A DNA stretch of 28,300 nt. Source: a virus. Where the stretch lies: the IMG/VR virus record IMGVR_UViG_3300031753_000034, positions 1 to 28,300 of that record, one strand, 5' to 3'. Positions 9,245 to 24,083 of the stretch are shown piece after piece (positions within the stretch are counted from its first letter, which is position 1; each line of letters starts with the position of its first letter). The translations under genes were made by a program, and so were the position numbers. The notes beneath the pieces are model-generated. The model was not told the DNA's origin and made no database searches. It worked only from the letters and a program-made list of their open reading frames with translations.

Positions 9245-10150
9245 TCATCGGAATTCCAGCGCCAGAGGCATCGGGACCACATTCTCGAATATGGCCGGGG
9301 CCAGGGCAAAGTAGGCGGCCCCTTCCCGTTCCGATTTCGGGTCGTTGTAGTTCTCGCGAATCATCCGTGGGCTGTTTCCCATCTCTTCGGCCAGTTGCGG
9401 CCGGTTCTTGATCACGGCCAAGCGATAGCTCCCGTAAGAATGCCGCAGAGCGTTGTCTTTCCGGGGCAACCCCGTGAGACGGCGGATCCTCGCCATTTCT
9501 CGACTATGGGCGTTCTCGTTCGTCTTAAAATTGCCAGGGTAAAGTGGGCCGACCCGGTCGCGATATGGCTCGAGCCAGGCGGCCAGATTTGGCTGGATGG
9601 GAACAACCCGGCTGATGCGGATCTTGCGCGCGACCCTGGCCGAAACGCGAATTTCGCCTTCATCGAATTTGATCGCGTTCCAATCGAGCCGCAAAATTTC
9701 GCTCGGGCGAAGCCCGGCGAAAAGCCCGAGCGCCACACTTGGGAGCCAATCCCGCGAAACATACTCAAGAATGAGCGCTGCCTCGGGTGGCGTCCAGGTC
9801 TCGATGTCGTGGCTTGGTTTTATTCGCCAAACCTTTTCCGCGGCCGAGCGGCGGTCCTCTGGCAAATGATCGTGCCGCCGAGCGAAGCGCGAGTATTGCA
9901 CGATCGCGGCGAGAATGTTATCGCGCCGGCGGGGCCCCACGCGTTGCGAAATTTCGCGCAGGTATTCGACGACATCGCTGTGGCGCACCTTTTCGAGATG
10001 GGGGAAGCGCCGGATGAAAGGTGTGAGACTGTTGCGCAGGCCGTAAATATGGCGGTAACTGCGGTTGAGATCCGCGAGCTCGCCAAGCATCTCGTCCAAG
10101 ATCTCCTCGGAAGAGGAGATGCGGCGCCGTTCAAACCATTGTCTAATCAT
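9245..10150 (-). CDS. int: Tyrosine recombinase (phage integrase)
   Basis: 301 residues from ATG 10150. The N-terminal ~115 residues form a SAM-like core-binding domain. The catalytic domain shows Arg148 in 'GLRPSEILRLDW', a Lys in the beta hairpin ('ARKIRISRVVPI', ~176), Arg236 in 'ALRHSYGSYRLA' and a nucleophile candidate Tyr268 in 'MIRENYNDPKSE'. The first His of box II is Asn233, and the usual His of the GHS box is Asn259 ('MGNSP'), which seems typical of this verrucomicrobial-style subfamily (from memory). The enzyme should carry out site-specific integration and excision at attP/attB. A palindrome lies 36 bp upstream and a tRNA-like sequence about 0.5 kb upstream. Confidence 0.9.
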   Translation of the reverse strand: MIRQWFERRRISSSEEILDEMLGELADLNRSYRHIYGLRNSLTPFIRRFPHLEKVRHSDVVEYLREISQRVGPRRRDNILAAIVQYSRFARRHDHLPEDRRSAAEKVWRIKPSHDIETWTPPEAALILEYVSRDWLPSVALGLFAGLRPSEILRLDWNAIKFDEGEIRVSARVARKIRISRVVPIQPNLAAWLEPYRDRVGPLYPGNFKTNENAHSREMARIRRLTGLPRKDNALRHSYGSYRLAVIKNRPQLAEEMGNSPRMIRENYNDPKSEREGAAYFALAPAIFENVVPMPLALEFR

Positions 10151-11752: not shown

Positions 11753-12165
11753 AACGGCCGGCATTCCTGGAACAACGCGTGATAACACCGCGGCCGCGAA
11801 CGTCCCATCGCGCGGTCAATTTTGTGATCATCCTGGCGATCGTGGCTCTGCTCGTGATATTGATCGTTAGGATATTTGCCTATGACGTCGTCGCCGGCGC
11901 CGTCCTTTGCGCCATTTTGTTTTCAGGCGGCGTTGTCTTGCTCGCGGGTCTGTTTATGCAAGCACGGCAACACAAGAAAAAGCTTGGCCAAATGAAATGG
12001 GAAGCGTGGCTCACCGCGGTGGACGATCGCGATATTGGCGGCGATCTCGATTTCAAAGATCCGGCAGAGTCATTGTATCTGCGCGAAAAGTTTGAGGCTG
12101 GCTGTTCCCCCTACGAAGCGATCGCCGCATGGCGCCATCGCCAAGCGCGGGACCGGAAGAGATGA
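11749..12165 (+). CDS. Two-helix membrane protein upstream of the HerA-like ATPase
   Basis: 138 residues on an ATGA overlap. Two transmembrane helices, 'VNFVIILAIVALLVILIVRI' and 'VVAGAVLCAILFSGGVVLLA', are followed by a cytoplasmic part with 'MKWEAWLTAVDDRDIGGDLD' and 'EAGCSPYEAIAAWRHRQARD'. The stop overlaps the ATPase start (ATGA), so the two are translationally coupled. One possibility is that it tethers or partners the ATPase at the membrane, similar to membrane partners of FtsK/VirB4-type motors, but no homology shows this. Confidence 0.6.
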   Translation: MKRPAFLEQRVITPRPRTSHRAVNFVIILAIVALLVILIVRIFAYDVVAGAVLCAILFSGGVVLLAGLFMQARQHKKKLGQMKWEAWLTAVDDRDIGGDLDFKDPAESLYLREKFEAGCSPYEAIAAWRHRQARDRKR

Positions 12166-13520
12166 GCAAACTGCACATCTCATCAGATTTGTCGCTTCCG
12201 CTCGATGCAGTGACGCAGAAGTTTGGGATCCTCGGCCGGACCGGCAGCGGGAAAAGCTATTTCGCGACCAAGCTCTGTGAAGAAATGCTGGATGCCAAAG
12301 CGCAGGTCGTGGCGTTGGATCCAGTGGGCGTGTGGTGGGGTTTGCGGGTCTGCGCGGACGGGAAGAGCGATGCTTATAAAATTCCGGTCTTTGGCGGTTT
12401 GCATGGCGATATTCCGCTCGAGCCAGGTGGGGGCGCACTGATTGCGGATCTGATTGTCGATAAAACGGTTTCCGCGGTGGTCGATCTTTCGGGATTTCTG
12501 CTTAGTGAACAACGCCGGTTCGCGACCGATTTCGCGATGCAGCTTTTTCATCGCAAAAAAGCGCAGCGGTCCGCGCTTCATCTTTTTGTCGAAGAAGCGC
12601 AGGAGTTCGTTCCGCAACAAGTCCGCGGCGATGTCGCTAAGATGGTCGGCGCTTATGAGCGGTTGTTAAAGCTTGGCCGCAATTTCGGGATCGGGGCATC
12701 GCTTATTTCACAGCGGCCGCAAAGCGTGAACAAAGACGTTTTGAATCAAACAGAATGTCTTTTCACATTTCAAATGACGGGGCCGCAGGAGCGCAAAGCG
12801 ATCGAATCGTGGGTTGCTGAGAAAGGTCTCGATAAAGACATCGTGGGCGAATTGCCCAAGCTCAAAGTGGGCGAAGCGCATGTCTGGAGCCCTCAATGGC
12901 TGCAAATTTCCGAGACGATCAAAATCTCGGAGAAAAAAACCGCCGATGTGAGCGCCACGCCCAAGCCGGGCGTAAAAGCGATCGAGCCGAAGCAGCTTTC
13001 GCAAATCGAGCTCGAGGATCTAAGCGATAAGATGCTGGCCACGATCGAGCGGGCCAAACAGGAAGATCCGAAAGCGCTGCGAAAACAGATTGTCGATTTG
13101 AAGCGCGAGCTCGCGTCGAAATCTCCGAAGCTTGAAAAAGTCCGTATCGAATCAAAGCCAGTCCTGAAAGACGGCCAGCTCGATAAGCTTCTTAATTACA
13201 TTGGCTGCGTTGGGGACCATTTGCGCAGGGCGAAGGCGATCGTTTCGCACGATTTCGAGAGAATACTCACCCGAATCGAGAAGGTCGACGTGTTGCTCAA
13301 GCCAATCAACGACGCGCTTGGCAAATTGGTTGAGCAAAAGCGCGGCAAACTGGTTTTCAGCGATCGCCAATACCGATCAAACTCGGCCGCGACCACTGGC
13401 GAAGAGGGGCCTCGCGTGTTTCCTCGTTCGATTCTGGAACGGCGGCCGGAGGGAAGGCCAACGAGTCGATTGAGTGTGAACAGCGATCGGTCACGCGACG
13501 GCAAGAAGTTTCACACTTAA
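12162..13520 (+). CDS. HerA/FtsK-type (DUF87-like) P-loop ATPase with C-terminal coiled coil
   Basis: 452 residues from ATG 12162 (ATGA overlap); an upstream in-frame start at 12129 lies inside the previous gene. Walker A is G25-RTGSGKS in 'FGILGRTGSGKSYFATKL', Walker B is at 139-145 ('LHLFVEE') followed by AQEF, and a sensor-like 'ISQRPQSVNKDVLNQ' follows, as in HerA and other DNA-translocating hexamers. Beyond residue ~260 the protein is charged and helical, including 'LDKLLNYIGCVGDHLRRAKA', and probably coiled. HerA-family motors pump DNA, often with a NurA nuclease. No nuclease gene is adjacent. A role in phage DNA processing or transfer is inferred. Confidence 0.8.
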   Translation: MSKLHISSDLSLPLDAVTQKFGILGRTGSGKSYFATKLCEEMLDAKAQVVALDPVGVWWGLRVCADGKSDAYKIPVFGGLHGDIPLEPGGGALIADLIVDKTVSAVVDLSGFLLSEQRRFATDFAMQLFHRKKAQRSALHLFVEEAQEFVPQQVRGDVAKMVGAYERLLKLGRNFGIGASLISQRPQSVNKDVLNQTECLFTFQMTGPQERKAIESWVAEKGLDKDIVGELPKLKVGEAHVWSPQWLQISETIKISEKKTADVSATPKPGVKAIEPKQLSQIELEDLSDKMLATIERAKQEDPKALRKQIVDLKRELASKSPKLEKVRIESKPVLKDGQLDKLLNYIGCVGDHLRRAKAIVSHDFERILTRIEKVDVLLKPINDALGKLVEQKRGKLVFSDRQYRSNSAATTGEEGPRVFPRSILERRPEGRPTSRLSVNSDRSRDGKKFHT

Positions 13521-13538: not shown

Positions 13539-13610
13539 ATGCGAGTTACCGACGGCGCGGAATTGCTCATCCAGTTCGGCCGGGTCGTCCGGCAATTCAC
13601 TTACGAATGA
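13539..13610 (+). CDS. Possible leader-like small ORF
   Basis: 23 residues from ATG 13539 with GCGGAA just upstream, ending in a TGA that overlaps the next ATG (ATGA). Sequence 'MRVTDGAELLIQFGRVVRQF' plus 'TYE'. Its frame follows that of the ATPase gene. The precise overlap suggests translational coupling for the next gene, but 72 bases is too short for a firm coding call. Confidence 0.35.
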   Translation: MRVTDGAELLIQFGRVVRQFTYE

Positions 13611-14086
13611 GCGTGCAGCCGTTCATTTTGTGTCCGTGTTGCGGCGCCAGAATAGAAATTGAAGCCCGGACTGTCCAGGCTGAGCTCCCCCTTGGGCCCA
13701 TTGCTTTCACTGAAAAAAAGCTCGACAAACCAAAGAGCGAGTTGGTAAAATCACACGACGTCGACGACGATTCTTTTATTCGCCACAGCGAACGATCCGA
13801 CCGAACGACGACGTCGTCGTTAACGGTCGCTTCTTGCGAAGAAGATCTACGGCCGTCGTCGCTGTCGTCGCTCAAAAAGATTCTCGGAGAAAGAGAATGG
13901 CGGACAAACAGCGATATTTGGGAGCGTTATTATAAGCGATGCCCGCGTGCTCTGAATCACGCGATCGAAGATTGGAAACTGCGCACACCGGATCAGCAGC
14001 AAACGATTAAAAATCGTGCAGCTTGGCTAACGGACCGCTATAAGCGCGCCGAGAGCGATATCCACAAAGCCAGGAAAAGCGCGTGA
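13607..14086 (+). CDS. Zinc-knuckle early protein
   Basis: 159 residues from ATG 13607. Starts 'VQPFILCPCCGARIEI', a CxCC knuckle that may bind zinc with a partner molecule. The middle is Ser/Asp-rich and low complexity, underlain by repeated GACGACG/CGTCGTC triplets. The last third is a conserved-looking helical unit 'WRTNSDIWERYYKRCPRALN' and 'KNRAAWLTDRYKR', similar in style to C-terminal modules of phage replication-associated proteins. Function unknown. The stop overlaps the GTG of the next gene. Confidence 0.6.
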   Translation: MSVQPFILCPCCGARIEIEARTVQAELPLGPIAFTEKKLDKPKSELVKSHDVDDDSFIRHSERSDRTTTSSLTVASCEEDLRPSSLSSLKKILGEREWRTNSDIWERYYKRCPRALNHAIEDWKLRTPDQQQTIKNRAAWLTDRYKRAESDIHKARKSA

Positions 14087-14607: not shown

Positions 14608-15273
14608 ATGACGACAACGGCCCTCGAACCGGCGGCTGCCGGCGCCATCGAGTCGAATCTCGATACGCGCGAGATGAGCGAATACATCGTCGCGCATGAT
14701 CTGGTCAACATTCAGACGGCCGCGCAGCTTCACCTCGAGAAGGCAGCCAGGGAGATCAGCCGATTGTCCGAATTGGCTACGATCATCATGGCTTTGGCTA
14801 AGGCCAACATGGAAAGCTTGGAAGTGATCGATATCAACACGCTTTTGAAAGCGCACCGATCAGCCTTGCGGCTCGCGCTAGCGGCGGATGTTGTTCTGGA
14901 AATGAATCTTTTGGCCCGATCCCACAAGATTAAGGCTAATCCGATGTTGGTCCGCGCGATGTTCGGTCTTTTCGCTTCCAACGCCGACGACGCGCTGGGC
15001 GAGGTCAAAGATCTGCGGAACAAGACATTTTCAATCGAGACCTTCGCAATCGACAGCGAAATCTTGATCCGGATCAACGACAACGGCGCCGGCATGAGCC
15101 AGGAGACAAAGCAGCGGATCTTGTCCGGCGAGAAGTTCACGACCAAGAGCGCTCATTGCGGCGAAGGAATGAGCTACATGAGCAAGGTTATCGGCAAATT
15201 GAAAGGTCGCTTTGAAATTAAAAGCGATCTTGGGATCGGAACAACGTTTCGAATCTATTTACCTGCCGTTTAG
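14608..15273 (+). CDS. Minimal soluble histidine kinase (DHp + catalytic ATPase domains)
   Basis: 221 residues from ATG 14608. Residues ~25-95 form a DHp-like helical pair with an H-box 'VAHDLVNIQTA' (phospho-acceptor His30). Residues ~110-221 are a GHKL/HATPase_c domain: N-box 'FASNADDAL' (Asn125), G1 'NDNGAGM' (158-163), an F-box-like 'FTTKS', a shortened G2 'CGEGMS' (185-187) and the closing 'DLGIGTTFRIYLP'. There is no sensor, PAS or membrane segment. Histidine kinases autophosphorylate and pass phosphate to a response regulator, none of which is encoded in this window. Its own promoter and a preceding terminator indicate an independently expressed accessory gene (moron-like). The kinase fold is secure; activity and partner are unknown. 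Confidence 0.8.
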   Translation: MTTTALEPAAAGAIESNLDTREMSEYIVAHDLVNIQTAAQLHLEKAAREISRLSELATIIMALAKANMESLEVIDINTLLKAHRSALRLALAADVVLEMNLLARSHKIKANPMLVRAMFGLFASNADDALGEVKDLRNKTFSIETFAIDSEILIRINDNGAGMSQETKQRILSGEKFTTKSAHCGEGMSYMSKVIGKLKGRFEIKSDLGIGTTFRIYLPAV

Positions 15274-15302: not shown

Positions 15303-16070
15303 GTGCTTAAAAACGGGTCGGAGCCTTTGCGCGGCGAAGAAGCGCGCCGCGCTGCTCACAGCGATTACGAACGCCATTTCAAGGAATGGTTTCGAGAGCA
15401 AACGCCGCTGATTCAGGATTGTTTGCGGCTCCAAGGAATCGATAAACCGGAGCCATACGACGCGCCGCGATATCGCGCGGAGCAGGACTTTGAACACGAG
15501 TTTTCCGATCCGGCCGATTTCGCCGTTGATCCCTGCGATCCGCGAATTCCGATTGTCGATTTTGAATCAACCAGTCGCGGCGAGCTAAAGGATTACTGCG
15601 ATCACTTTGGGAGCGCACTGAATTGGGCAACCAAAGGCAAGCCGGACATCTACGACATGGGCGTGCGTGCAAATGTGCTGCTCGCTGTGATGCGGCCGCA
15701 AGCGCTCCAAGGCATGAAGATGAGGCTCCCAAAAAAATTGATTGAAGGATTGCGGAGCGCGTTGCTCGTCGGCGGAAAAGATCCGCTCAAAACCGGCAGA
15801 TTTTTCTGGCGTGCTTTCGGTTGGGTTCGCAAATGCGGTTCGCTGATGCAGCTAGGGAAACGCATGTTTTCTATGATCTACGCATTGCGTCCGGATCTGA
15901 TCGATGCCGCGACCTGCGCGGTCATCGGCGAGCTGGACAATAAATCGCGCCAAGCTGCGAACAAACCGGTGCAAGAATTTCGAGACACTTTCAGCGGGAT
16001 CAACTCGCTGCCAATGAGAGGAAATGAAACGAGGAAACGATGCAAACGATCGCAACTGAACAATCACTGA
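15303..16070 (+). CDS. Hypothetical protein downstream of the kinase
   Basis: 255 residues from GTG 15303. Soluble, mixed charge, with an acidic segment 'DFEHEFSDPADFAVDPCDPR' and a helical C-terminal half ('PKKLIEGLRSALLVGGKDPL', 'QLGKRMFSMIYALRPDLID'). The final residues are basic. No domain is recognised. It overlaps the DUF3102 gene by 31 bases and could be co-transcribed with the kinase, since the hairpin between them is a weak terminator. Confidence 0.6.
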   Translation: MLKNGSEPLRGEEARRAAHSDYERHFKEWFREQTPLIQDCLRLQGIDKPEPYDAPRYRAEQDFEHEFSDPADFAVDPCDPRIPIVDFESTSRGELKDYCDHFGSALNWATKGKPDIYDMGVRANVLLAVMRPQALQGMKMRLPKKLIEGLRSALLVGGKDPLKTGRFFWRAFGWVRKCGSLMQLGKRMFSMIYALRPDLIDAATCAVIGELDNKSRQAANKPVQEFRDTFSGINSLPMRGNETRKRCKRSQLNNH

Positions 16071-16736: not shown

Positions 16737-17282
16737 GTGAAGCGCAAGCGGAAGGCCGGCCGGCCACGCAAGAAGTTTGATCCCGATGGGTTTTCTCCGG
16801 ATCTCGATGGGGTTGCTGAACATCTCGGGATTTCGCTGCGCGCGCTGCACAACGCTCGCAAACGTTTTGCCAAAGACAGGCCAAAGCATCGCGCCGGCGG
16901 ACCGTATCCGATGCGCGCTTACAAGAATTGGGCCGATCACCACGGCGTAACCGGCCGGCGTAAGCAAGAAGATCTCGTCGAAGAGCAGGACATCCGGTTG
17001 CGTCGGGACAGGCTCCGGCTCGCGCGCGAAGAATTCGAATTTGAGCAGATCAAAGAACAGATGTTGCCAGTCAGCCAGTTCCAGATCGCGCTCACCAAAA
17101 TGGTCGCAGCGTTCCTGGCCGCGCTCAACGCGTTTCCGTCGCGGGTAAATGAGCAGCTCGAGGGTTTGAGTTTCGATGATCGCGCGCCGGTGCTCGAACA
17201 GGAAGTCGAGTTGCTTAAAAAAACCCTGGCCGGCTGCGATTATCTGCAGGCCGAGTCTAACGATCAAGAATTTTCCGAATGA
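16737..17282 (+). CDS. terS: Terminase small subunit (Nu1-like)
   Basis: 181 residues from GTG 16737. An N-terminal basic arm 'RKRKAGRPRKKFDPDG' leads into a helix-turn-helix 'LDGVAEHLGISLRALHNARK', as in small terminase DNA-binding domains. A following charged coiled coil 'RRKQEDLVEEQDIRLRRDRL' and 'REEFEFEQIKEQML' is typical of oligomerisation regions. The last third is acidic and helical. It directly precedes the large terminase gene, overlapping a small gene between. The small subunit recognises packaging sites and feeds DNA to the motor. Assignment rests on domain layout and position. Confidence 0.75.
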   Translation: MKRKRKAGRPRKKFDPDGFSPDLDGVAEHLGISLRALHNARKRFAKDRPKHRAGGPYPMRAYKNWADHHGVTGRRKQEDLVEEQDIRLRRDRLRLAREEFEFEQIKEQMLPVSQFQIALTKMVAAFLAALNAFPSRVNEQLEGLSFDDRAPVLEQEVELLKKTLAGCDYLQAESNDQEFSE

Positions 17283-17464
17283 AACAGCCAACGCGATTCG
17301 AAGATGAATTTCCTGCAACGGCTGCTTTTCTCATGTCGATCTACGCGCGCGAGCCACAGCATACATGCCCGCGCGGGCACCGACATTTCCTGCCGTATTG
17401 GCTGCACGTCGGGCGCGACTACTGCCAGCATATTCCGTTTGAGATTTATTGCCGCCGCCGATGA
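17279..17464 (+). CDS. Small Cys/His protein between terminase genes
   Basis: 61 residues with ATGA overlaps at both ends (with terS and terL). Contains 'HTCPRGHRHFLPYWLHVGRD' then 'YCQHIPFEIYCRRR', with three Cys and several His that could bind one zinc ion. No family is recognised. The tight coupling to both terminase genes suggests an accessory packaging or structural role, perhaps an HNH-like remnant or a zinc knuckle. This is speculative. Confidence 0.55.
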   Translation: MKQPTRFEDEFPATAAFLMSIYAREPQHTCPRGHRHFLPYWLHVGRDYCQHIPFEIYCRRR

Positions 17465-19506
17465 AGCAAAAGGTTGTCGATCTTTTCCGCGGAATCATCG
17501 CTCCCCTGCTCACTCCGCTTCCACGGAAGAAAATGTGGGAGTGGGCCGACGAAAACGTGATCGTTCCGGACGTCGTAGGCAGTCCTTATCCGGGTCCGCT
17601 CAATTCCGGCCGGTTGCCGATGATGCGCGGACTTCTCGAACGCTTGGAGCTCCCGCGCGTGCGCTTTTTCGATCTTTGCAAAAGCGCCCGGACCGGAGGG
17701 TCGCTTTTTTTTGGGATCATTCCTGTGTTACATAAAATCGCGACTAAGCCCGGGCCCATCCTCTGGCTGGATCCAACGGCGCGGACCGGATCGCGACTCT
17801 CGCGCCAGGAGATCCAACCATTCCTGCGCGCCTGCCGGGCGACCAACGTGCTGCGGATCCCCACCAAGCGCTATTGGACCACGCGGGAAATGATTTTCAA
17901 GACCAGCACCTTCGGGATTGTTGGCGCCGGCAGCGTGCCGGACCTGGGCGGACGCCAGGGCGAATTAATCGTCATCAATGAGCAGGACAAAATTCCTGCT
18001 AAAGCGCGGGCCGAAGCGCCGCCCGGTTTGCTTGTGCTGGTCCGGAGCAAACTCTTTCGGCGCACCCGCAAAATCATCCGCAACTCGACTCCCACGCTCG
18101 AGCAAGCTGATACCTGGGGCGGGTTTGTAGCGGGCTCGCAATTGTATGGCTACCTGCCATGTCCGAAATGCGGCGGTTATCAGCCGCTCGCTTTCTTCAA
18201 GGAACCTGCGCAGCCCGATCAATGGATGCGGATTGATGAGGACGATCCGCTCCTCATCGGGCACGAAATAAAGCGCGCCAGCCGCCACGGCGTCAATCTC
18301 GCGGCGGACACGCAACGAAAAAATTATCGCGCGATCAAGCGAGCGAAGGACAAACGGGGCGGTTATCTGGTGCAAGGTATTGCCCAAACCGGCCGGATCT
18401 GGTGGCCGGCCGAGCTCCAGGACAAAAAATCGAAGCAATGGGACGTGGACGAAGTCGAGCGACAGGCGCGTTACGAGTGTGGTTTTTGCGGCGCGAAGAT
18501 TGCGCAGGAAAAACTTAACTGGATGAACGCGCGCTATGCGCTGCGATCGCACCGGCCGCACGCTCCATACGACACAGAAAGTGCGCTCCTTTGGGCCGCT
18601 TATTCGCCAATGGATTTGGGATGGGGCGGCCTCGCTAAAAAATATCTCCTCTCGATCGGGAGCGTGACCAAGATGCACGACTGTTACAATTCCGATTGGG
18701 CGCGGCCGTTTGAACGGACACCAACGCGGATAACTCGCAAAACGATCGAATTGATTCAAGCCAGGACTCCGATCAAATACGAGCGCGCGAACCCACTGGA
18801 TCCGGAGGATCCGTGCAAGCTTCCCATCCGTCCCTGCTTTATCACGATGAGCCGGGACGTTCAGCAGACCGAAATGTGGTGGGAAGTGTGGGCCTGGGCA
18901 GTTGATGCCAGCTCCTGGCTCCTGGCCTGGGGCTCATGCGCTTCCGATTCTGAGATTGTCGACATTTCCAACCGGGTTTGGACTTACGATTTTGGAGATG
19001 GTTCGCCGCTCGAGCTCCACACCACTTGGAAAGGCGTCACCGACTCAGGCTACAAAGCGAAGCGGCCCGCCGGCGTTTACCGCTTCGTCCACGAGCAAGG
19101 CGGCCGGTGGATCGCCGCGCGCGGCGGACATCTGCAAGCGGGAAAAGAAAAACCGATTCACGAAACGTCGATCGAATTCAATTACGACGGGGCCCAGGTC
19201 TCCATCCCTTACTGCCACTTCAACGATGATCAGATGAAAGATCATCTCTACCGGTTCGTCATCAAGGAGCGCCAGCACGCGCGCTATCTCCCGCAAAAGC
19301 TGGACGATTTATTTATTGACCAGGTCACGAGCGAACACCTGACGGCGATCAAAATGCCCGATGGCCGGACCGCGCACGAATGGCGCGTGGGAGTCGATCC
19401 GCACCTGGGCGATTGCTGGAAAATGAACGAGATCTTTCATTTCATTTTCTCGCGCGAACTGCTACAAGCGATGCGCGCGCGCCAGGACGCCATCCGTAAA
19501 AAATGA
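17461..19506 (+). CDS. terL: Terminase large subunit (GpA family)
   Basis: 681 residues from ATG 17461. The Walker A is the deviant lambda-gpA kind, 'CKSARTGGSLFFG' (Lys74; lambda has KSARVGYSK), followed by 'PILWLDPTARTG' and a Walker B-like 'GELIVINEQDKIP'. A zinc-knuckle pair 'PCPKCGG' and 'ECGFCGAK' lies in the middle, as in many GpA terminases. The nuclease half starts at 'ITMSRDVQQTEMWWEVWAWA' and ends in a basic C-terminus. The enzyme cuts concatemers at cos and drives ATP-dependent packaging into the procapsid. Length is normal for the family. Confidence 0.93.
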   Translation: MKQKVVDLFRGIIAPLLTPLPRKKMWEWADENVIVPDVVGSPYPGPLNSGRLPMMRGLLERLELPRVRFFDLCKSARTGGSLFFGIIPVLHKIATKPGPILWLDPTARTGSRLSRQEIQPFLRACRATNVLRIPTKRYWTTREMIFKTSTFGIVGAGSVPDLGGRQGELIVINEQDKIPAKARAEAPPGLLVLVRSKLFRRTRKIIRNSTPTLEQADTWGGFVAGSQLYGYLPCPKCGGYQPLAFFKEPAQPDQWMRIDEDDPLLIGHEIKRASRHGVNLAADTQRKNYRAIKRAKDKRGGYLVQGIAQTGRIWWPAELQDKKSKQWDVDEVERQARYECGFCGAKIAQEKLNWMNARYALRSHRPHAPYDTESALLWAAYSPMDLGWGGLAKKYLLSIGSVTKMHDCYNSDWARPFERTPTRITRKTIELIQARTPIKYERANPLDPEDPCKLPIRPCFITMSRDVQQTEMWWEVWAWAVDASSWLLAWGSCASDSEIVDISNRVWTYDFGDGSPLELHTTWKGVTDSGYKAKRPAGVYRFVHEQGGRWIAARGGHLQAGKEKPIHETSIEFNYDGAQVSIPYCHFNDDQMKDHLYRFVIKERQHARYLPQKLDDLFIDQVTSEHLTAIKMPDGRTAHEWRVGVDPHLGDCWKMNEIFHFIFSRELLQAMRARQDAIRKK

Positions 19507-23177: not shown

Positions 23178-24083
23178 ATGCTCACGCTCCTTTTTAATCA
23201 GGGAGCAGATGTTACGGTCTCCGCCGCCGGCGTTGGAGCCAATGCGGCCATCGGCATAGGGCAGATCGACGTTACTTTCGCGCTCACTGGCGTTGCTGAG
23301 AATGCCGCCATCGGCGCGGGGCAGATCGACGTTACTTTCGCGCTCGCTGGTGTTGGCGCCAACGCAGCCATCGGCGCAGGCACGGTCGCCGTTACTTTTG
23401 CTCTGGCCGGCGTTGCGGCGAACGCATCCATCGGCTCCGGCAAGATCGACGTTACTTTCGCTCTCACAGGAATTGCGGCCAATGCGGCGATCGGAACTGG
23501 TTCGTTCGTCATCGATGTATATTTCGCGCTCGCCGGTGTCGGCGCTTCATCCGCGGTCGGGACCGGATCAGTTGCCATCGATTTCGCGGCCGCTGGCGTG
23601 TCCGCGTCCGCGGCAGTCGGCGCCGGATCGTTCGACGTTGCTTTCGCCCTAGTCGGCATAGTGGCCAACGCCGCGATCGGGACGGGCGCACTCCAAGGCG
23701 CCGTCGATGTGGTTCACGGTTGCACGCTGGCGCCCGCTACGGTCGTGCTGGGCGCGGTCCAGTCCCGGCGCAGAAAAGATAGCGGCGTCGCAGCCAATCC
23801 TGGAACCGGGACCGGCCGGATCGTTATCGATGTTGCATTTTCTTCTCCCGGCGTCGCGGCCAATGCGGCGATCGGTCAAGGCCGGGTAATTTGCGATGCC
23901 GTTTTTTCAGCGCGCAGCTGCAGCGCGCGGGCGGCGGCCGGAAACGGCCGGATAATTTGCGATGTCGTCATCCGCCAGCCGAGGATCACAGAAGCAAACC
24001 CGAAAATCGGCCGCGGCACAATTATCTCGATTGTCGATCTTACGGACGACGAAATCTGCGCTCTCCTGGCCATGGCTGCTTGA
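23178..24083 (+). CDS. Repeat protein, beta-solenoid-like virion component
   Basis: 301 residues from ATG 23178. Residues ~18 onward are tandem 20-22 residue repeats with consensus G-V-A-A-N-A-A-I-G-x-G-x-I-D-V-T-F-A-L-A; eight regular units are followed by about four diverged ones ending 'RGTIISIVDLTDDEICALLA'. Gly-Val-Ala-Asn turns and short strands fit a solenoid or collagen-like rod. Similar 'GVSATGAVG' repeats occur in phage structural proteins. No signal peptide. A fibre-like or capsid-surface role is inferred. Exact-length repeats at DNA level could allow copy-number change by recombination. Confidence 0.7.
   Translation: MLTLLFNQGADVTVSAAGVGANAAIGIGQIDVTFALTGVAENAAIGAGQIDVTFALAGVGANAAIGAGTVAVTFALAGVAANASIGSGKIDVTFALTGIAANAAIGTGSFVIDVYFALAGVGASSAVGTGSVAIDFAAAGVSASAAVGAGSFDVAFALVGIVANAAIGTGALQGAVDVVHGCTLAPATVVLGAVQSRRRKDSGVAANPGTGTGRIVIDVAFSSPGVAANAAIGQGRVICDAVFSARSCSARAAAGNGRIICDVVIRQPRITEANPKIGRGTIISIVDLTDDEICALLAMAA
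23229..23714 (+). repeat. Eight ~60-bp tandem repeats
   Basis: Units start at 23229, 23289, 23349, 23409, 23469, 23535, 23595 and 23655. The period is exactly 60 bp except for one 66-bp unit. Units differ mostly at synonymous sites, and several share ATCGACGTTACTTTCGCGCTC exactly, so parts of the array were duplicated recently. The repeats keep the reading frame. Confidence 0.85.

Follow-up and report, generated by a model that had tools for sequence, protein, structure and literature searches.

A histidine kinase core of 221 residues, which carries a phospho-acceptor His and an ATP-binding domain and no sensor, is encoded as a complete gene product in the 28,300-base IMG/VR virus record analysed here (the window), and three related phages keep a similar core in the same genomic slot. 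These proteins are proposed to form a family of stand-alone transmitter cores that act on host response regulators as kinase and/or phosphatase, a reading that, from the sequences at hand, we hold to be about evenly balanced between right and wrong. The window member would be a derived form of this family, in which the docking end of the DHp hairpin has been largely deleted.

A stand-alone kinase core in a tailed phage

The window contains genes for an integrase, an endolysin, a HerA-like ATPase, a terminase, a portal, a head protease and a major head protein. Based on this integrase, endolysin, packaging and head gene content, the source virus is a tailed phage and probably a temperate one. 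The record itself is probably a fragment, since a phage contig with a terminase 91% identical to that of the window (L002) spans 37 kb. Despite this identity, the early region of L002 is unrelated to that of the window and has no kinase, which indicates that these phages are mosaic. The junction is sharp and lies 5′ of the terminase; beyond it, a ParB-like protein, an AAA ATPase and others replace the HerA-like ATPase, the kinase and the conserved protein that follows it. Elsewhere in the window, between the portal and head protease genes, positions 23178–24083 encode a 301-aa protein that consists mostly of ~17-residue repeats (GVGANAAIGTGxIDVTFALA). The genes referred to below are the following.

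9245–10150, minus strand: tyrosine integrase (PF00589, phrog_1), suggestive of a temperate phage
12165–13520, plus strand: HerA/FtsK-like ATPase, common to L007 (81%) and L010 (70%)
14608–15273, plus strand: stand-alone histidine kinase core, 221 aa, an intact open reading frame with Pfam and NCBIfam matches
15303–16070, plus strand: conserved protein directly 3′ of the kinase slot throughout the phage group, 36–46% identical in L007, L010, L024, L026 and L032
16040–16615, plus strand: DUF3102 protein (Pfam PF11300, E 1.8e-07), the next gene of the conserved block, syntenic
16737–17282, plus strand: terminase small subunit (phrog_57, E 3.7e-10)
17449–19506, plus strand: terminase large subunit of the GpA type (Pfam GpA_ATPase and GpA_nuclease)

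The conserved protein at 15303–16070 is without a match in Pfam, PHROGs or the PDB; it occurs in six phage contigs, and a DUF3102 protein comes after it each time.

By codon position, the base composition of the kinase gene (GC3 of 0.70) resembles that of the packaging and head genes of the phage (0.66–0.74). An alternative start at ATG 14674 (Met23) would yield a 199-aa protein with the His at residue 8, like the relatives described below, and no clear ribosome-binding site that would decide between Met1 (14608) and Met23 was seen. Pfam HATPase_c matches residues 116–220 with an E value of 2.3e-10 and 41.3 bits, against a curated cut-off of 26.4 bits. An alignment to PRK13837, the VirA-like kinase model of NCBIfam, runs from the H-box to the end of the protein (residues 28–220, E 1.7e-20), although the score is far short of the 647 bits that this model sets as equivalog cut-off. 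In Pfam searches at E<1, no domain besides HATPase_c was found: neither HATPase_c_2 (SpoIIAB-like anti-sigma kinase) nor HPTransfase matches, and even HisKA does not, so that of the HisKA/HATPase_c profile pair only the second recognizes the protein. No sensor or input domain was found by Pfam, and at most 29 residues precede the His. An earlier note on this DNA had described a phage kinase of nearly minimal size that lacks a sensor and a membrane segment, and had placed it in the GHKL/histidine kinase family from its motifs; both descriptions hold up against these matches and the alignment that follows.

The catalytic residues are retained

The window protein, its three phage relatives and 31 bacterial kinases were aligned with MAFFT, giving an alignment of 35 kinases. 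The columns of H30, N125, D158, G160, G162, G185, G187, G200, S206 and G211 are invariant throughout, so that the H-box is genuine, as are the N, G1 and G2 boxes. Within the kinase gene, the motifs and domains are located as follows.

14665–14802, plus strand: DHp remnant, residues 20–65, with a short spacing from His to X-box, modelled as a low-confidence single helix
14695–14697, plus strand: codon of His30, the predicted phospho-acceptor in VAHDLVN, invariant in the 35 aligned kinases
14821–15267, plus strand: catalytic ATP-binding (HATPase_c) domain, residues 72–220, pLDDT ~85–95 except in the lid region
14980–14982, plus strand: N box, Asn125, invariant
15079–15093, plus strand: G1 box DNGAG, residues 158–162, with D, G and G invariant
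15136–15168, plus strand: F box FTTK and G2 box GEG, residues 177–187, forming the ATP lid, with G185 and G187 invariant

In the window protein, H30 and D31 align to the active His of the 34 homologues, so that the phospho-acceptor proposed earlier is present in every aligned sequence, and both Asp31 at H+1 and an Asn at H+4 are found. Studies of CrdS and HK853 established that the acidic residue at H+1 is required for kinase activity and the Asn at H+4 for phosphatase activity (PMC3510030). Although the four phage kinases are only ~29–44% identical to one another, the His, the acidic H+1 residue, the Asn at H+4 and the N, G1 and G2 boxes are invariant among them. That these residues persist in sequences so divergent points to selection on the chemistry. 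The members of the family are predicted to bind ATP and to phosphorylate the conserved His.

The invariance of the phosphatase determinant, Asn at H+4 (PMC3510030), in all four phage proteins also fits an enzyme whose main activity would be to dephosphorylate a host response regulator, draining phosphate from it and silencing a host pathway during infection; sensorless cores, which have no input to switch them, would suit such a role. However, the kinase acid at H+1 is conserved equally, and a phosphatase needs receiver docking too, for which part of the surface is seemingly missing from the window protein. This alternative is considered quite improbable.

The window protein appears to lack the tip of the DHp hairpin

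AlphaFold2, run with eight sequences, gave a model with a mean pLDDT of 74 in which the ATPase domain is confident and the ATP lid (residues 178–184) has low pLDDT; from the single sequence, it gave a pLDDT of 41 and no usable model. Residues 20–65 are drawn as one helix, with a pLDDT of only 45–58 and no hairpin visible, a result compatible with the presence of a short hairpin as well as with its absence. A predicted structure without a DHp dimer or an ATP lid had been named in the earlier note as evidence against a kinase; the confident ATPase domain speaks for the kinase assignment, and the single low-confidence helix in place of the DHp speaks in part against it. Foldseek searches with the window model returned histidine kinases throughout, among them HK853, KinB, ZraS and CckA, with E values down to 1e-12. 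With a profile of the four phage proteins, the alignment to KinB takes in its complete DHp-CA core (E 4.8e-29), as does the alignment to ZraS.

The spacing of the motifs suggests where the DHp differs. From His30 to the X-box Arg52, the window protein has 22 residues versus 33–41 in the 31 bacterial kinases, and from the X-box to the DLN position it has 23, where the bacterial kinases have 23–31; these figures rest on a low-identity alignment, and both phmmer against ZraS and MAFFT are consistent with a gap at this point. In the relatives from L010, L024 and L032, the corresponding distances are 34–36 and 15–22 residues, and only 5–7 residues lie ahead of the His. The window protein therefore appears, by sequence, to be missing ~17 residues at the tip of the DHp hairpin, and the relatives appear to be trimmed mostly at the upper, sensor-facing end, with a DHp that is nearly complete. 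Their Pfam HisKA scores (25.7 bits for L010, 24.8 for L032 and 22.2 for L024) all fall just below the cut-off of 26.9 bits. A Gly or Pro that could form a turn is absent from the window segment, as it is from one of the 31 bacterial kinases, which makes this absence unusual and not decisive. Hydrophobic-moment coherence over residues 30–65 was discarded as a sign of a single helix because control kinases with true hairpins score equally high.

The hairpin tip is the end at which receivers dock, as established by structures of the HK853–RR468 complex. The docking surface of the window protein is probably reduced, and its DHp is doubtful: of the DHp assigned to it earlier, the H-box stands, and the hairpin is ~17 residues short, with no HisKA match and no hairpin in the model. 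For the window member, ATP binding is likely, autophosphorylation is possible and efficient phosphotransfer is doubtful.

The missing hairpin tip and the lack of a HisKA match could also mean that the window protein, and perhaps the whole family, is a pseudokinase or decoy that binds ATP without passing phosphate on and disturbs host kinases, either by pairing with them in mixed dimers or as a competitor for their receivers or their ATP domains. The long branch of the window protein in the tree (see below) and the missing sensor helix of the relatives are in line with this explanation, but a mere decoy would not be expected to keep all of the catalytic motifs, including the H+1 acid that only a kinase uses, in four proteins with identities as low as ~29%. 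We regard it as unlikely. In a further alternative, with the tip deleted, residues 20–65 of the window protein would form a continuous helix that pairs antiparallel with that of a second chain, placing each His30 near the ATPase domain of its partner for autophosphorylation in trans. Such an opened DHp would no longer dock standard receivers, and its targets would be host kinases, upon which it would act as a mixed-dimer poison or a phosphate trap. This arrangement is thought very unlikely.

A kinase family in one genomic slot

Relatives of the window kinase were found among IMG/VR phage contigs by starting from the HerA-like ATPase and the gene 3′ of the kinase. Each occupies the same slot and belongs to a 200–208 aa class.

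L010:10196–10822: kinase of L010
L024:9252–9875: kinase of L024
L032:934–1536: kinase of L032

By BLASTP, these proteins are 26–33% identical to the window kinase, depending on the query direction, and Pfam HATPase_c matches all four (E 2e-10 to 7e-19). The order of kinase, conserved protein and DUF3102 protein is the same in the four contigs, and the large terminase subunit is reached in the window, L024 and L032. The gene before the kinase is weakly replication protein O-like, or a relative of such a gene, in L010, L024 and L032, whereas the window has other small genes at this position; an open reading frame at 13607–14086 was examined as a counterpart and has no significant similarity. Because the kinase is less similar to its window counterpart (26–33%) than are the conserved protein (36–46%) and HerA (70–81%), it changes faster than its neighbours. 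It is also not essential to the phage group, as L007 keeps the whole neighbourhood, including HerA, and has no kinase. An 88-aa reading frame in L007 (9322–9588) was considered as a DHp without an ATPase domain and rejected, owing to a poor alignment and no family match. Nor is the pairing of HerA with the kinase constant, given that a search of part of L024 yielded no relative of HerA.

Just 5′ of the kinase start, L024 (9234–9253) and L032 (904–920) have near-identical DNA, CGTGCTAAAT..GTCCCAT, at kinases that are ~41% identical. This string is possibly a regulatory site; its core occurs in L010 with one mismatch, and no convincing recurrence was found in the window.

A fixed position within a run of genes from replication to packaging would likewise fit a non-signalling GHKL ATPase that has been recruited to this block as a partner of the conserved protein next to it or of the HerA-like ATPase, and HerA is indeed also common to L010 and the window (70%). 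Such an ATPase would have no reason to maintain a phospho-acceptor His together with the residues at H+1 and H+4, however, and L007 has the neighbours and HerA without the kinase; the HerA pairing is moreover inconstant, as seen in the part of L024 searched. To this explanation we assign little probability.

No close relative of the window protein was found in viral contigs, and genomes gave one weak match limited to the ATPase domain. GenBank phages gave just partial ATPase matches at no more than 35–37% identity; most of these lie in metagenomic records without annotation or in records that may be contaminated. In the tree, the kinases of L010, L024 and L032 group together (support 92/91), and the longest branch is that of the window protein, which the tree does not place with confidence. 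A single clade of all four phage kinases is neither established nor rejected (p-AU 0.32). Since the slot and the small size are common to the four, a single origin is favoured, with repeated recruitment as the alternative.

A kinase and no receiver in the phage records

No Response_reg domain was found at E≤10 in the records of the window, L010, L024, L032, L007 and L002, which may be fragments; a receiver-encoding contig, L034, was detected as a positive control. The absence of a response regulator near the kinase, as first noted, extends across the 28.3-kb record and to the records of the three related phages; because that record is probably a fragment, the absence of a partner holds for these 28.3 kb only.

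The control contig has a system of its own. At L034:3354–7217, a three-gene cassette encodes an SMC/AAA_21-like ATPase, a HEAT-repeat histidine kinase (373 aa) and a response regulator, and it looks like a defence-type two-component module. Its kinase also occurs in L035 and L036/L041 (three IMG/VR contigs), with the full set read in L034, and PADLOC returned partial matches for the ATPase only and none for the kinase or the regulator.

The presence of a similar kinase at the corresponding position in three distantly related viruses suggests that these phages interfere with host signalling by means of it. The idea of a role in a host relay, put forward in the earlier note, is strengthened by the finding that three related phages carry sensorless kinases in this slot, with no receiver in any of their records, and it is weakened for the window protein itself by the missing docking tip. 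In the proposed mechanism of a stand-alone transmitter core, a HisKA-type phospho-acceptor helix joined to a HATPase_c domain would hold a fixed place in the genomes of one set of uncultivated tailed phages, and phosphate would pass between this core and at least one response regulator of the host. The output of the core would be set by the amount of protein made and not by a stimulus, because a sensor is absent and, in three of the four proteins, the His is preceded by hardly any helix. If this is correct, a sensorless core at a fixed position in the core genome, without a receiver of its own, would be a simple override of host two-component signalling, with a signalling output set by gene dosage. 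In addition, these naturally trimmed kinase cores of ~200 aa show which parts of the DHp are dispensable, and bear on how much of it autophosphorylation requires as opposed to receiver docking.

Comparison with known systems

The cytoplasmic DHp-CA cores of the HisKA kinases KinB (PDB ID: 3d36), ZraS (9jfj), HK853 (2c2a) and CckA (5idj) resemble the window protein in the ATP-binding fold, in the H, N, G1, F and G2 motifs and in the order of DHp followed by CA. In contrast, these cores were excised from sensor proteins by crystallographers, and the phage core is the entire gene product. The best-scoring relatives, VirA-like and hybrid kinases with HDFNN H-boxes (PRK13837 and the bacterial L051–L076), share the H-box type, but their frames of 281–2000 aa leave room for extra domains, and a bare core is absent among the matches listed. 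Across 150 genomes, none of the nearest bacterial kinases among the matches listed has an open frame shorter than 281 aa.

Histidine kinases of phages and giant viruses in BFVD (e.g. A0A6J5LDC5, A0A1B1IUJ1 and Q8QKV7) have the same fold and are likewise virus-encoded, but at 371–1186 aa (matches with E up to ~1e-5) they are longer than the window protein. Among BFVD matches with E below 1e-3, the only shorter protein is a giant-virus entry of 116 aa. Known phage kinases, at 371–760 aa, are also larger than the members of this family, and their BFVD sources include uncultured tailed phages. The histidine phosphotransferases Spo0B and ChpT are small, soluble proteins with a DHp and an ATPase-like fold, without a sensor, that have lost the ATP motifs. 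The window protein shares their small, sensorless build, but it keeps all of the ATP motifs and has no HPTransfase match. In the literature searched, which covered few subscription journals, a family of minimal or sensorless phage-encoded kinases is undescribed, and the sole match to "minimal histidine kinase" concerned Schlafen fusions in BREX-linked loci. Virus-encoded kinases are already known; what appears to be new here, judged by sequence comparison, is the occurrence of sensorless cores of ~200 aa in a fixed phage slot.
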